From NCBI GenBank assembly GCA_021850325.1, contig JAJZMF010000024.1, forward strand, positions 124,001 to 188,000: a stretch of 64,000 nt of DNA. The letters run 5' to 3'. Each line of letters starts with the position of its first letter. The stretch's first letter is position 1. The notes under the pieces were generated by a model. That model did no database searches. It saw only the letters and a list, made by a program, of their open reading frames with translations, and was not told the DNA's origin. This stretch comes from Actinomycetes bacterium. GTDB lineage: Bacteria > Actinomycetota > Acidimicrobiia > Acidimicrobiales > Palsa-688. The position numbers and the translations under genes are program-made. Below are positions 26,704 to 31,760 of the stretch, piece after piece.

Positions 26704-28482
26704 TCAGTGCTCCGCCCGGGCCCCGGCGTCCCGGCGGGCCCGCCGCCCGGGTGCCTGGCGCTCGAGGCGCTTCCAGGCCAGCGGCCAGCGACGCCCCAGG
26801 TCCACCTGCTCCCTGCGCACGGCTGCCAGGAGCAGCCCGGCGACCACGGGGGCCGGTGTCGGGGGGCCGTCAGGGACAGCCTCCTCCGCCTGGCCGGGCG
26901 CACCGTCGCCGGGCGGCGGGCCGGGAGCCTCGGCCGGAGCGGCCCCGGCGGGGCAGCGTGCCGCCGCCCTGGCCAGCCACCCGGACATGACCTGTGAGTC
27001 GTGCAGCTCGCCCAGGAGGTCCTGCAGGTCCGTGGCCAGTAGCGCCGTCTCCTGGGCGTGGCGCCTGTCCTTGCGCCGGTCCAGGGTTGTCCCCGCCAGC
27101 TCGGCCAGGTAGCGCAACTGCTTGGTCTTTATGCGTGCCCGGTGCAGCTGCTGGTCCGTCGTGCCCTGCGCCGCAGCGCGCAGGGCACGACGGACCGAGC
27201 GCCATTGCGAGGCGACGAGCACGGCAGCCACCGTCCGGGCGGGCTGGGCCCCCAGTGGACCGGCCAGGCCCCCCGCCTCGGGGCTCTCGGCCACGGCGGC
27301 CAGGGCCTGGACGGCCCCCAGGTAGCGCTCCGAGTGAAGGGCCAGGACCAGGTCGGCCCGGGCCGCCTGGTGGTCGGCACGGGCCAGGGCGACCAGTTCC
27401 TCCGCCCCCTCGGAGTCCTCCGGGCGCAGCGAGGCCCGTAGCCGTTCGAGCGAGCCCAGGCGTACCTCGGCGTCGCGTGCCCGGCCCAGGACCTGTCCGA
27501 GCCACTGCAGCTCCTCAACCAGTTGCCCCTCGGCCCCGGCCCCGTGGGCTGCCCCGGAGCTCGTGGCCGTGGCCTGCCCCCTCGCCGCCCCGGCCCTGGC
27601 CAGGGCCCGCAGGACGGCCCTGGTGCGCCTGGTGGCCACCCGGGCCTTGTGCACGTGCTCGGGGCCCGGGTCGCCCAACTTGATGTACGGCTCGGTCTGC
27701 GCCAGCACGGACAGGCAGTCGCCGGCCTGCCGTCGGACGAGCTCCCGGGCCCGGCCGCCCGGTGCGCCGTCCGGGGCCTGGCCGGGGGAAAGGCCCGGCC
27801 CGGCGCGCCCACTGCTGTCCGTGCGCTCCAGGACGGTCCCCACCTTGCTGTGCCGGTCGCTCCGCCTGGCCCCGGCGGCCATCAGGCGCTCCACTATGGC
27901 CGTCGCCGTTTCGAGCGCCGCTCCGGGGGCGAGCTCCACCTCGACCTCGCAGAAGGTGACCGTGGCGGCCGGATGCCCTCGGGCGGCGAGCAAGAGGTTC
28001 GTCCCGGTCACCGAGTCGTGGTCGACCTCCGCCAGCAGCCGGCCGTCCGAGGTGGTGACCCGGCGGCGTTCGCGTACCGTGCTCAGGTGCGCCACAGGGT
28101 GCAGGTGGTGCCCCAGGGTTGCCGCGGTCACCAGACCCGAGATGTCGGCCGGCACCCCGGGCGGGACCTCCTCCGGCGTGCTGAGCGGTCCCTCGGGCAC
28201 CTCCCGGTTCACCTCGGTGCGGGCCTCGACCTCCCCTGAGGCAGGAGCAGGGAGCTTGAGCGTCCACTGCCGCACGGGCTCGCCCCCGCCAACGCGCTCG
28301 CTGCGCAACCTGAGCGTCATGCGGTGCCTGCCCAGGGCAGCGTCGTCCGTGTCGTAGTACACGGCATCGAGCTGCAGCACCTCCGGTCGGCCGACCGAGC
28401 TACCGGGGAGCACCCCTTCCAGGTCCGGCACGTGCCAACCGGGGCCCGTGTCCAACTTGACCTCTTGCTCGAGTGCGTGCAC
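26704..28482 (-). CDS. CYTH-CHAD domain protein
   Basis: The 592-residue protein combines a CYTH triphosphate-tunnel domain (residues ~1-215; ExExK appears as EQEVK at 5-9, then arginine-rich strands such as MTLRLRSER and the SKVGTVLER end) with a helical CHAD domain (~245-590; HVHKARVATRRTRAVLRALAR and HRARIKTKQLRYLAELAG). CYTH domains hydrolyse or bind triphosphates, and CHAD domains bind polyphosphate, so polyphosphate-linked metabolism is likely. A proline- and glycine-rich insert lies near the C-terminus (AAPAEAPGPPPGDGAPGQ). AGGAGG stands only three bases before the GTG. Confidence 0.9.
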   Translation of the reverse strand: MHALEQEVKLDTGPGWHVPDLEGVLPGSSVGRPEVLQLDAVYYDTDDAALGRHRMTLRLRSERVGGGEPVRQWTLKLPAPASGEVEARTEVNREVPEGPLSTPEEVPPGVPADISGLVTAATLGHHLHPVAHLSTVRERRRVTTSDGRLLAEVDHDSVTGTNLLLAARGHPAATVTFCEVEVELAPGAALETATAIVERLMAAGARRSDRHSKVGTVLERTDSSGRAGPGLSPGQAPDGAPGGRARELVRRQAGDCLSVLAQTEPYIKLGDPGPEHVHKARVATRRTRAVLRALARAGAARGQATATSSGAAHGAGAEGQLVEELQWLGQVLGRARDAEVRLGSLERLRASLRPEDSEGAEELVALARADHQAARADLVLALHSERYLGAVQALAAVAESPEAGGLAGPLGAQPARTVAAVLVASQWRSVRRALRAAAQGTTDQQLHRARIKTKQLRYLAELAGTTLDRRKDRRHAQETALLATDLQDLLGELHDSQVMSGWLARAAARCPAGAAPAEAPGPPPGDGAPGQAEEAVPDGPPTPAPVVAGLLLAAVRREQVDLGRRWPLAWKRLERQAPGRRARRDAGARAEH

Positions 28483-28560
28483 GTCCCTCCTGACCGAGCA
28501 GCGCCGGCAGCTACCGACCTAGTTCACGATATTGCGGTGCGGCTGGTCCCCGGGGCTGCC

Positions 28561-28623
28561 GGCCGGGCCGGGCACGGAGCCGCCCGGGCCGGGCACGGAG
28601 CCGGCCGGGCCGGGCACGGAGCC
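28561..28623 (+). repeat. Three tandem 21-bp repeats before murB
   Basis: Three copies of a 21-base unit (GCCGGGCACGGAGCC core) run head to tail, differing at one or two positions. They lie between the CYTH-CHAD start and murB. Read in the murB frame the unit would encode GRAGHGA, but this is probably non-coding. Confidence 0.8.
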
Positions 28624-28692
28624 GGCCGGCCGGTAGGATGCGCCCTCACGTCGCCCTCATCCTTCCCCCGCCCCACCGCCGACGAGCAGCCT

Positions 28693-29724
28693 TTGCACGG
28701 CACCCCACTGGCGGCCTGGACGACGCTCGGCGTGGGGGGCGAGGCGGCCGAGCTCCTCGTGGCCCGGGAGCGGGACCAGTTGTGCGAGGCGGTGGCCAGG
28801 GCGGACGCCCAGGGTCGTCCCGTGCTGCTACTTGGCGGTGGGAGCAACGTGGTGGTGGGCGACGGAGGCTTCGACGGCCTGGTGGTCCGGGTGGGGGTGG
28901 AGGGGGAGCGGGAGCAGGAGGACGGCGACGGTTCGGTGCTGGTGCGGGTGGGTGCCGGTGTGAGCTGGGACGACTTCGTCAGGCGCTGCCTGGCTGAGGG
29001 ACTGGCCGGTGTCGAGTGCCTGGTGGGGGTGCCCGGCCTGGTGGGCGCCACCCCGGTGCAGAACGTCGGCGCCTACGGGCAGGAAGTGGCCGAGGTGGTC
29101 GAAGCTGTGCAGGCCTGGGACCGGGCACGCGGCCAGTTGGTGGTGCTCCAGGCTCGGGAGTGCGCGTTCGGGTACCGCGACAGCCTGTTCAAGCGGAGCG
29201 ACCGGTACGTCGTGACCGAGGTGGTCTTCCGCCTGACCAGGTCCGGGACGGCGAAGCCCCTGCGCTACCCCGAGCTGGCCCAGGCCCTGGGCGCGGTGGT
29301 GGGCGACCGGCCGCCCTGTTCCGAGGTGGCCGCTGCGGTCCTTGCACTGCGCCGTTCCAAGGGCATGGTCATCGGCCCCGGGGAGCAGGCCTCCCGCAGC
29401 GTGGGTTCGTTCTTCGTCAACCCGGTCCTGGGAGAAGCAGAGGTGAGGCTTCTCGACCGCCGCTTCCCCGGGGCGCCCCGGTTCCCGGCGCCCGGAGGGA
29501 CCAAGGTGCCGGCGGCCTGGCTGGTCGAGGCCTGCGGCTTCCACAAGGGCTACCGCCGGGGGAGGGCGGCTGTCTCCTCCCGGCACGCCCTGGCCCTGGT
29601 GGCGTTGGACGGTGCCCGGGCGGCCGACGTGGTCGACCTGGCCCGTGAGGTACGGGACGGGGTCGCGGGACGCACCGGCGTGGTCTTGCAGCCCGAGCCG
29701 CGGCTCGTGGGCTGCCAGCTGTAA
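28693..29724 (+). CDS. murB: UDP-N-acetylenolpyruvoylglucosamine reductase
   Basis: This flavoenzyme completes UDP-N-acetylmuramic acid by reducing the MurA product with NADPH. It shows TTLGVGG, the FAD loop LLLGGGSNVVVGDGGFDG, the GVPGLVGATPVQNVGAYGQEV block with the usual Tyr region, the catalytic Ser in RSVGSFFVNP and a C-terminal Glu region (LQPEPRLVG). The frame is open far upstream without ATG or GTG. I take the TTG at 28693, which gives 343 residues and a standard N-terminus. A TAGGAT at 28634 could be the -10. No good ribosome site is seen, so the start is uncertain. Confidence 0.85.
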   Translation: MHGTPLAAWTTLGVGGEAAELLVARERDQLCEAVARADAQGRPVLLLGGGSNVVVGDGGFDGLVVRVGVEGEREQEDGDGSVLVRVGAGVSWDDFVRRCLAEGLAGVECLVGVPGLVGATPVQNVGAYGQEVAEVVEAVQAWDRARGQLVVLQARECAFGYRDSLFKRSDRYVVTEVVFRLTRSGTAKPLRYPELAQALGAVVGDRPPCSEVAAAVLALRRSKGMVIGPGEQASRSVGSFFVNPVLGEAEVRLLDRRFPGAPRFPAPGGTKVPAAWLVEACGFHKGYRRGRAAVSSRHALALVALDGARAADVVDLAREVRDGVAGRTGVVLQPEPRLVGCQL

Positions 29725-29865
29725 GCCGGCAGTACAGGTCCGGCACCGCGCCGGTCCCCGGAAGGCCGAGGCAGAGGGCCGGGGCCGCCCGCCCGGGGGC
29801 AGGGCTATCTTGTCCAACGATGTGAGAAGTGACTATTAGCTATCACTCTGATGTCGTGGCAGGTG

Positions 29866-29871
29866 TAATAT
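29866..29871 (+). promoter_or_regulatory. -10 hexamer of 6C-like RNA copy A
   Basis: TAATAT is preceded by G-T-G and lies about seven bases before the inferred RNA start. The equivalent TAGCAT stands at the same distance from the hairpins in copy B. Confidence 0.45.
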
Positions 29872-29877
29872 GACTGT

Positions 29878-29992
29878 GTCCTCCCGGTGGCCTTGCCTCC
29901 GGAGCAGGGCCCGAGCTCGGGGCGGTTCCCCCCCTTCCACCCCTTGAGCCGTTGTACAGAAGGACCGGCGTCCCCCCGCCGGTCCTTCTGGC
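29878..29992 (+). ncRNA. 6C-like small RNA, copy A
   Basis: Two stem-loops with C-rich loops match the design of the actinobacterial 6C RNA. Hairpin 1 has GCTC-GGGG (29915-29922) pairing with CCCC-TT-GAGC (29940-29949) around a loop with seven C. Hairpin 2 has AGAAGGACCGGCG (29958-29970) pairing perfectly with CGCCGGTCCTTCT (29977-29989) around TCCCCC. The second hairpin probably also ends transcription, though no T run follows. It lies between the converging murB and murA genes. In mycobacteria the C loops of 6C RNA pair with G-rich sites in mRNAs. Confidence 0.7.
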
Positions 29993-30107
29993 TTAACCGG
30001 TTCACCCTGGTCCCACAGCCTACGACCGGCCCCCGGGCGTGGTCGCGCCCCGAAGGCCTGCCGTAGGGGCGGGCCGGCCGGTGGTGGCTCCCGCCGCCGG
30101 GGGCCTC

Positions 30108-31430
30108 TCAGCCGGCGGTGTGGGCCGGCGCCGAGCGGGCCTCGAGCAGCAGCCCGAGCGAGCGCAGCTGGTCTGCCGGACGGTGGTAGCCCCGCTCCAG
30201 GTGGCGTACGCCATGGATGACAGTGGGCCCGGAAGCGGCCGCAGCAGCGATCACGCTGGAGAAGCCGGCCCGCACGTCAGGGACGTCCACCTCGGTGCCC
30301 TGGAGCTTGGACGGCCCTCGCACCACGGCGGAGTGCAGGTAGCTCGTGTCGTGGAACCGGCACGCCGGCCCGCCCAGGCAGGTGGCAAAGAGGCCTATCT
30401 CGCCCCCCATCGCCTTGAGCGCCGGCACGTAGACGAAGCGGTCCTCGTACACCGTCTCGTGCAGCACGGACATCCCCTCGGCCTGTGTGAACAGCACCAT
30501 CAGGGGGGTCTGCCAATCGGTCATGAAACCGGGGTGGACGTCGGTCGAGACGGCGGCTGCGTGGAGGCCGTCGGGTGCGAAGGCGCTGATGCCGTGCTCG
30601 TCGATGGTGACCTGGGCGCCCATCCTCAGCAGGGTGGTGATGGCGGTCACCAGGCGGTCCTGGGCACAGCCGATGACCCTGACCGCCCCTTTGGTGATGA
30701 GCCCGGCCACCAGGTACGAGAACGCCTCGTTGCGGTCGCCCTGGAGGTGGGTGTGGGCACCCCGCAGGGAGGGCACGCCCTCGATGACCACCCGCCGGTC
30801 CGGCGAGAGCTCTATGCGGGCGCCCATACGCTGCAGGAACAGGGCCAGCTCCAGCACCTCGGGCTCGGTGGCCGCGTTCCGGACCACGGTCCGGCCCTCG
30901 GCCACGGCTCCCGAGAGCAGGGCCGATTCGGTGGCGCCCACGCTCGGGTAGGGGAGCTCGATGATCGCCCCTCTGAGCCGCCGGCACTTGGCGCGGATCC
31001 CCTCGGAGGTCACCTCGACCTCGGCGCCGAGCGACCGCAGGGCCTGCACGTGGAAGTTCACCGGCCGGCCTCCGATCCGGTCCCCGCCCACCATCGGCAC
31101 GAAGGCCTCACCGGTCAGGTGCAGCAGCGGGCCGAGCAGGAGGACCGGGATCCGGTTGAGGCCGCTGAACGACAGCGGCACCTCGGGCTTGACCTCCTCG
31201 GGAGGGGTCACCTCGAGCACTCCGTCCTTGTGCTCCACGCCGGCCCCGATGGCGCGCAGGATGTCAGCCGTGATCTGGACGTCGCCGACCTCGGGCACGT
31301 TGGAGATGGTGCTGGGGCCCTCGCCGAGGATGGCGGCGACCATGTGCTTGGTGACTGCGTTCTTGGACCCTCGGACCTCTACGTCGCCTACGAGGGGGCC
31401 GTTGGGCTGTATGAACCATTCGTCTGACAC
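30108..31430 (-). CDS. murA: UDP-N-acetylglucosamine 1-carboxyvinyltransferase
   Basis: MurA starts peptidoglycan synthesis by moving enolpyruvate from PEP to UDP-GlcNAc. From the GTG at 31430 it has 440 residues, the usual size. The EPSP-synthase fold is clear: GPLVGDVEVRGSKNAVTKHMVAA at the N-terminus, ALRSLGAEVEVTSEG, DVHPGFMTDWQTPLMVLFTQAEG and ETVYEDRFVY. At the catalytic loop, where fosfomycin acts on a Cys in sensitive species, I read PVNFHVQALRSLGAEV; the usual Cys-bearing GCAIGARPVD loop is not evident. If confirmed, that change would suggest natural fosfomycin resistance. Upstream starts were rejected because that region holds the second 6C-like RNA. Confidence 0.93.
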   Translation of the reverse strand: MSDEWFIQPNGPLVGDVEVRGSKNAVTKHMVAAILGEGPSTISNVPEVGDVQITADILRAIGAGVEHKDGVLEVTPPEEVKPEVPLSFSGLNRIPVLLLGPLLHLTGEAFVPMVGGDRIGGRPVNFHVQALRSLGAEVEVTSEGIRAKCRRLRGAIIELPYPSVGATESALLSGAVAEGRTVVRNAATEPEVLELALFLQRMGARIELSPDRRVVIEGVPSLRGAHTHLQGDRNEAFSYLVAGLITKGAVRVIGCAQDRLVTAITTLLRMGAQVTIDEHGISAFAPDGLHAAAVSTDVHPGFMTDWQTPLMVLFTQAEGMSVLHETVYEDRFVYVPALKAMGGEIGLFATCLGGPACRFHDTSYLHSAVVRGPSKLQGTEVDVPDVRAGFSSVIAAAAASGPTVIHGVRHLERGYHRPADQLRSLGLLLEARSAPAHTAG

Positions 31431-31604
31431 GGGAGCGATCTTCGCAGATGCCCGTGGCGGTGGCGCAGACTCCCTGATGGGGACCGTTCCCCAACCAGCG
31501 GGACCTGCCATGCCCCCGTGAGCACGGACGCCCCGAGGCACCGCGATCGCAAACAGCGATACGACACTTTCGGCACAGCTATGCCGGTGATGCCAGCTCC
31601 CGGG

Positions 31605-31610
31605 TAGCAT
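31605..31610 (+). promoter_or_regulatory. -10 hexamer of 6C-like RNA copy B
   Basis: TAGCAT lies in the same position relative to the hairpins as TAATAT in copy A (about 136 bases from -10 to the shared ACCGGTTCA end in both). Confidence 0.45.
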
Positions 31611-31616
31611 GGTGTT

Positions 31617-31730
31617 CGTCCGGAGGGCGCCCCCCGCCCGAAGGCGCACAGCTCGGGCCAGGTACCCCCCTTCCCGGCCCTTGAGCGAAGCATCGAAGGA
31701 CCGGCGTCCCCCCGCCGGTCCTTCACATTT
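31617..31730 (+). ncRNA. 6C-like small RNA, copy B
   Basis: Hairpin 1 pairs GCTC-GGGCC (31651-31659) with GGCCC-TT-GAGC (31676-31686) around a loop with six C. Hairpin 2 pairs GAAGGACCGGCG (31695-31706) with CGCCGGTCCTTC (31713-31724) around TCCCCC. The length, the TT bulge in hairpin 1, hairpin 2 and the ACCGGTTCA tail match copy A, while the 5' part has diverged. It is on the strand opposite murA and lies between the thioredoxin-like gene and the murA start. The 331-base spacer 31431-31760 holds this RNA and the murA upstream region. Confidence 0.7.
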
Positions 31731-31760
31731 AAACCGGTTCAGGAGGGGCGCCCGTGGTGT

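Follow-up and report, generated by a model that had tools for sequence, protein, structure and literature searches.

Two 6C-like small RNA candidates flanking murA belong to a conserved RNA family of Acidimicrobiales with a putative LysR-type operator

The 6C RNA is among the best-known small RNAs (sRNAs) of Actinomycetota. Its representatives, such as mycobacterial B11 and cgb_03605 of C. glutamicum, measure about 100–120 nt, carry two successive hairpins with a run of C in the loop, frequently have a 5′ extension and place the last hairpin near a T-run, and the two elements described here share this layout. Control of sRNAs by LysR-type regulators is known from E. coli, where GcvA/GcvB and OxyR/OxyS are established regulator–sRNA pairs and the genes of GcvA/GcvB are divergent. 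For B11 of M. abscessus, compensatory mutations have shown that the RNA represses eccB4 with its C loops, which act on a G6 tract within the 5′ UTR (PMC10470900). Extra 6C copies also occur in some mycobacteria (PMC9569102), and for C. glutamicum the 6C RNA has been assigned to the network of the regulator GlxR, which acts in carbon metabolism (PMC4046766).

We analyzed a stretch of 64,000 nucleotides from an Acidimicrobiales genome (hereafter the window), in which two elements, A and B, lie on the + strand, one past each end of murA (30108..31430, − strand; TIGR01072, 416.7 bits, over the cut-off), as the original prediction had placed them. The taxonomic placement is derived from relatives of murA, the nearest being those of unclassified Actinomycetes MAGs and of Acidiferrimicrobium (class Acidimicrobiia, order Acidimicrobiales). 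A is situated in the gap between murA and the convergent murB ORF (28324..29724, + strand; TIGR00179, 188.1 bits, over the cut-off), the true start of which lies downstream of 28324. B is found beyond the 5′ end of murA with its transcription pointing away from that gene, and no upstream + strand gene is able to read into it. The predicted transcripts span 29878..29997 (A) and 31618..31734 (B), both with estimated ends, and the genes that follow next after A and B in the window are on the opposite strand. Upstream of A, a LysR-type box ATCTTGTCCAACGAT (ATC-N9-GAT; 29807..29821), centered at about −64 from the predicted start, precedes a conserved promoter stretch AGCTATCACTCTGATG (29838..29853), the counterpart of AACTGTTGGACAGAT in relatives, and a putative −10 box TAATAT (29866..29871). 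B has the box ATCGCAAACAGCGAT (31546..31560), to which the same box statistics apply, the promoter stretch AGCTATGCCGGTGATG (31577..31592), recognized by comparison with relatives, and a putative −10 box TAGCAT (31605..31610). The −10 hexamer, predicted to be shared, is thus similar in both elements and not identical, and both −35 boxes are poor.

The transcribed parts largely correspond to what had been predicted. The first shared hairpin (29915..29949 in A, matched by our covariance models R1 and R2 and supported by covariation; 31651..31686 in B, supported by covariation) has a C7 loop in A and a C6 loop in B, with a UU bulge (TT in the DNA) before GAGC in both. The last hairpin, terminator-like and with a C-rich loop (29957..29990 in A; 31695..31724 in B, supported by covariation), has a core of 30 nt, GAAGGACCGGCGTCCCCCCGCCGGTCCTTC, that is identical in the two elements. 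Both end in the common tail AACCGGTTCA, and the T-tract 3′ of the last hairpin is weak. The 5′ parts have diverged, as a comparison of A, B and their relatives confirms: each element carries one additional, more diverged hairpin 5′ of the shared pair, at 29889..29911 in A (loop CUCCGGA, where relatives have UCUCCCU) and at 31625..31639 in B (C5 loop, from the fold and the comparison with relatives). Both elements fold much more stably than shuffled sequence (z-scores of −5.3 for A and −3.6 for B), with none of the shuffles equally stable. Nonetheless, hairpins with a C5 loop and a stem of at least 8 are not rarer in shuffled DNA (7 in the window versus a mean of 11 in shuffles). C-loop hairpins alone are unremarkable in this GC-rich DNA, so the argument rests on the repeat and its conservation. 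Within the last hairpin, a 24-nt core has exactly two occurrences genome-wide, with no others even when up to 3 mismatches are allowed. A possible third genomic copy (G000:C37:284-356, 28 bits) was dropped as it does not adopt a fold with two C-loop hairpins.

A DNA-level search revealed relatives in 27 of 99 genomes, most genomes of the same family among them. R1, a covariance model built from 25 copies, matches 27 of the 32 genomes of the taxonomic family, including all 12 of good quality, and 68 of the 298 genomes of the order. In the unfitted alignment of 25 sequences, 98.5% of the cells are paired and seven pairs covary. In an alignment of 62 sequences that was fitted to the model, 21 out of 22 pairs covary with 231 compensatory cells (0 of 500 shuffles), a signal that is abolished by sliding the partners or by shuffling. 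The C-run loops persist across the aligned copies while the stem sequences vary. The promoter stretch is conserved among relatives as well, and so is the position of the −10 box, 12–13 nt before the GTCC 5′ end. At the level of sequence comparison, this establishes A and B as conserved, structured putative RNAs with two C-loop hairpins and a conserved promoter.

The original prediction had read the pair as a duplicated 6C RNA. The duplication of an sRNA with 6C-type architecture stands: two consecutive hairpins, each with a loop run of about six C, are present in A and B and covary in relatives. The direct assignment to 6C (RF01066) does not: neither copy is matched by the Rfam 6C covariance model even at E ≤ 10, which the prediction itself had named as one half of the outcome speaking against it, and the copies are connected to 6C by way of intermediate relatives. 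Rfam searches returned nothing credible, either for the window at gathering scores or for the region with a limit of E ≤ 10. Across the phylum, the 6C model matches 10 of 149 genomes and, at its gathering score of 47 bits, misses A, B and every scanned relative. Below this cut-off, it does align over its full length to three distant relatives, L094, L097 and L107 (scores, highest first, 41.0, 40.9 and 36.8 bits), with the same position and strand, and our broad model R2 finds four out of ten true 6C genes in place. At the phylum level, R2 matches below approximately 40 bits were excluded, as terminator-like or tRNA-adjacent hairpins are among them.

These cross-matches argue against the main alternative, an independent family of C-loop sRNAs that would be 6C-like in action without descending from 6C, its C loops having arisen separately in GC-rich Actinomycetota. 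Such an origin would fit the scores of A, B and all scanned relatives below the curated 6C cut-off, the true 6C loci, which have no LysR neighbor within the 3 kb read, and the HAD gene to which true 6C is divergent, the best match of which does not lie beside these RNAs in several Acidimicrobiales genomes. We regard it as a serious alternative, though less likely than not. HAD synteny was also considered as a sign of 6C orthology and was rejected: the RNA has the opposite orientation, in the f1, f50 and f32 genomes searched, the 6C-side HAD finds its best match at another locus with no 6C-like RNA beside it, and the HAD adjoining the 6C-like RNAs is a HAD-acyltransferase, a paralogue with 33–34% identity. 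Because A and B are unmatched by the Rfam 6C model, the links run only via below-cut-off intermediates and the HAD is paralogous, we do not file the family as a member of 6C. By analogy it would work like 6C, of which it is probably a distant relative: a widespread and previously unmodeled lineage that appears 6C-like, with strict 6C membership unproven. Separately, locus L220 (~1501-1576, − strand) of a large-genome actinomycete holds a probable 6C-like RNA (Rfam 6C 40.8 bits, below the curated cut-off; R2 43.7).

The upstream box offers a candidate regulator. ATC-N9-GAT has been described as a LysR-type motif (PMC10100970), and it is present in 47 of 60 regions upstream of the RNA, those of A and B included, compared to 1.2 expected. 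No other spacer with a length of 2 to 15 occurs in more than seven of these regions, and 3.4% of the control windows contain ATC-N9-GAT. The box lies upstream of the predicted start by about 64 nt. Relative to the RNA core its offset is about −74, but about −105 in murA-type copies, a shift equal to the length of the extra 5′ hairpin. In the order-level loci, a LysR gene is positioned divergently and immediately upstream of the RNA in 18 out of 19 cases, with its coding match 73–169 nt from the RNA core, and the box is found in all 19. In several of these loci the LysR start codon coincides in part with the ATC half of the box, which therefore does not count as independent evidence there, whereas in the window's family LysR is located elsewhere, so start-codon overlap cannot explain the box in that family. 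The Pfam domains of the regulator confirm a LysR protein. At least one boxed RNA is present in 20 of 20 family genomes with LysR and in 0 of 7 without (hypergeometric 1.1e-6), a comparison of 11 versus 4 genera in which the statistic ignores shared ancestry and some genomes are incomplete. The window's genome has one clear ortholog (G000:C22:77565-78446), on another contig next to aconitase and unlinked to A and B. In sum, the comparison establishes a putative LysR-type box near −64, the presence of which tracks one LysR gene, and it points to control of A and B by a LysR-type regulator. A DNA-damage (PafBC) promoter, considered in view of the 6C literature, was rejected, as the box, with its fixed ATC-N9-GAT form, agrees with LysR rather than with PafBC. 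Further sequence features were observed. Two-hairpin copies in front of malic enzyme (L037, L038, L039, L040, L041, L043, L047, L048 and L050) share a conserved TGTGACnnAnGTCnCTTG at or just upstream of −35, which resembles a CRP/GlxR-type half-palindrome and is also present in copies without a LysR box (L042, L051 and L126). The family's two-hairpin copies also include a TGTGACnnAnGTCnC stretch similar to a CRP/GlxR-type site.

A copy in the murB-murA gap, as for A, occurs in four genera (g1, g3, g9 and g16). These copies carry an extra 5′ hairpin (GUCC...UCUCCCU...GGAC) that has diverged in A and B. B, the second copy, is present in each of the three genomes that represent the window's genus and was seen in no other genome. 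The 5′ half of B is closest by identity to the b copy of genome G001 (0.71), and its last hairpin and tail are closer to the a copies (0.76–0.78), with which it has the TTAAACCGGTTCAG tail in common, than to the b copies (0.71–0.72), a weak sign of possible gene conversion between the two elements. Other genera of the family have the RNA either 50–460 nt ahead of a malic enzyme gene on the same strand or in the vicinity of a gene for aldose epimerase. As copies elsewhere adjoin malic enzyme, aldose epimerase or LysR/HAD loci, murA is a local address and not the partner of the family. Near the aldose epimerase gene, many genomes of the family have a second, more diverged paralogue of the CGCTTCGGCCGGTA type (L112-L119, L128 and L130). 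In family f19 of the order-level set (L093, L094, L095, L097, L100, L106 and L107), an additional hairpin-like region on the 5′ side, itself bearing a C-run, brings the number of C loops to up to three per RNA. Tandem CCTGGT repeats immediately follow the RNA tail in L007 (G002:C35), and similar GCCCTGGTAGCCAGT repeats lie upstream of the RNA in L008.

The many same-strand copies ahead of malic enzyme, and others that precede genes for aldose epimerase or HAD-acyltransferase, could also suggest a cis-acting leader that controls the downstream gene. The opposite orientation of the genes after A and B, the widely varying RNA–gene distances and the T-rich end that follows the last hairpin in several relatives make this unlikely. 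It is more improbable still that the hairpins are mere terminators or a repeated element, with A ending the convergent transcription of murB and murA: A does lie between convergent genes and its last hairpin is a perfect GC-rich palindrome that scores weakly on the other strand too, but B does not lie 3′ of any gene on the + strand, conservation extends from the last hairpin to the first hairpin, the promoter and the LysR box, the C loops are kept while the stems change, and most relatives are upstream of genes.

The account we favor, and consider likely, is that A and B are two separately transcribed 6C-like sRNAs that are activated in trans by the LysR-type regulator and block G-rich ribosome sites with their C loops. 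The LysR protein (G000:C22:77565-78446) would bind the ATC-N9-GAT boxes and activate both RNAs from its distant locus; LysR-type proteins can also repress. By analogy to 6C/B11, the exposed C5–C7 loops may pair with several mRNAs at G-rich ribosome binding sites and prevent their translation, and the last hairpin may also terminate transcription. The A/B pair presumably arose by duplication around murA in the window's genus, and the diverged 5′ hairpin may give A and B partly different targets. Sites complementary to the C6UU loop show a mild excess near start codons in three genomes (57 versus 31 in the control). Among the AAGGGGGG sites before start codons, few of the loci read open a plausible gene and none is convincing. 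A role for murA, or for the cell-wall genes that had been suggested as possible targets, is unsupported, as most relatives sit elsewhere and the target search yielded no convincing gene. The gene context points, weakly, to central carbon metabolism as the most likely setting, since aconitase or citrate synthase genes neighbor the LysR gene, and malic enzyme and aldose epimerase genes neighbor other copies of the RNA.

On a broader scale, we lean towards an Acidimicrobiales-wide module of a LysR regulator and a 6C-like sRNA, ancestrally a divergent pair. In the window's family, the sRNA would have left its regulator, spread and been duplicated around murA while keeping its operator, such that one regulator drives several sRNAs in trans. 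This would add a divergent 6C-like lineage, missed by current models, with a specific candidate transcription factor, and suggests a route by which an sRNA can leave the locus of its regulator and multiply while the operator is kept.

Three groups of known systems can be compared to A and B. The alphaproteobacterial ar14/ar7 and CCUCCUCCC-loop sRNAs also have C-rich loops thought to face ribosome sites, and ar14/ar7-type Rfam models give weak matches to A, B and relatives, all below gathering scores. The ar14/ar7 sRNAs differ by CCUCCUCCC loops rather than plain C runs and belong to another phylum. GcvA/GcvB and OxyR/OxyS likewise combine a LysR-type regulator with an sRNA, and the divergence of GcvA/GcvB is matched in 18 of the 19 order-level loci. 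On the contrary, their RNAs are unrelated and lack C-run hairpin loops of the 6C-like kind, and, compared to GcvA/GcvB, the RNA in the window's family is away from the LysR gene and duplicated. Finally, A and B depart from 6C itself by being unmatched by the Rfam model, by other stems and by an extra 5′ hairpin with a CU-rich loop, and their family does so by the LysR box, the LysR neighbor within the order and another genomic setting.
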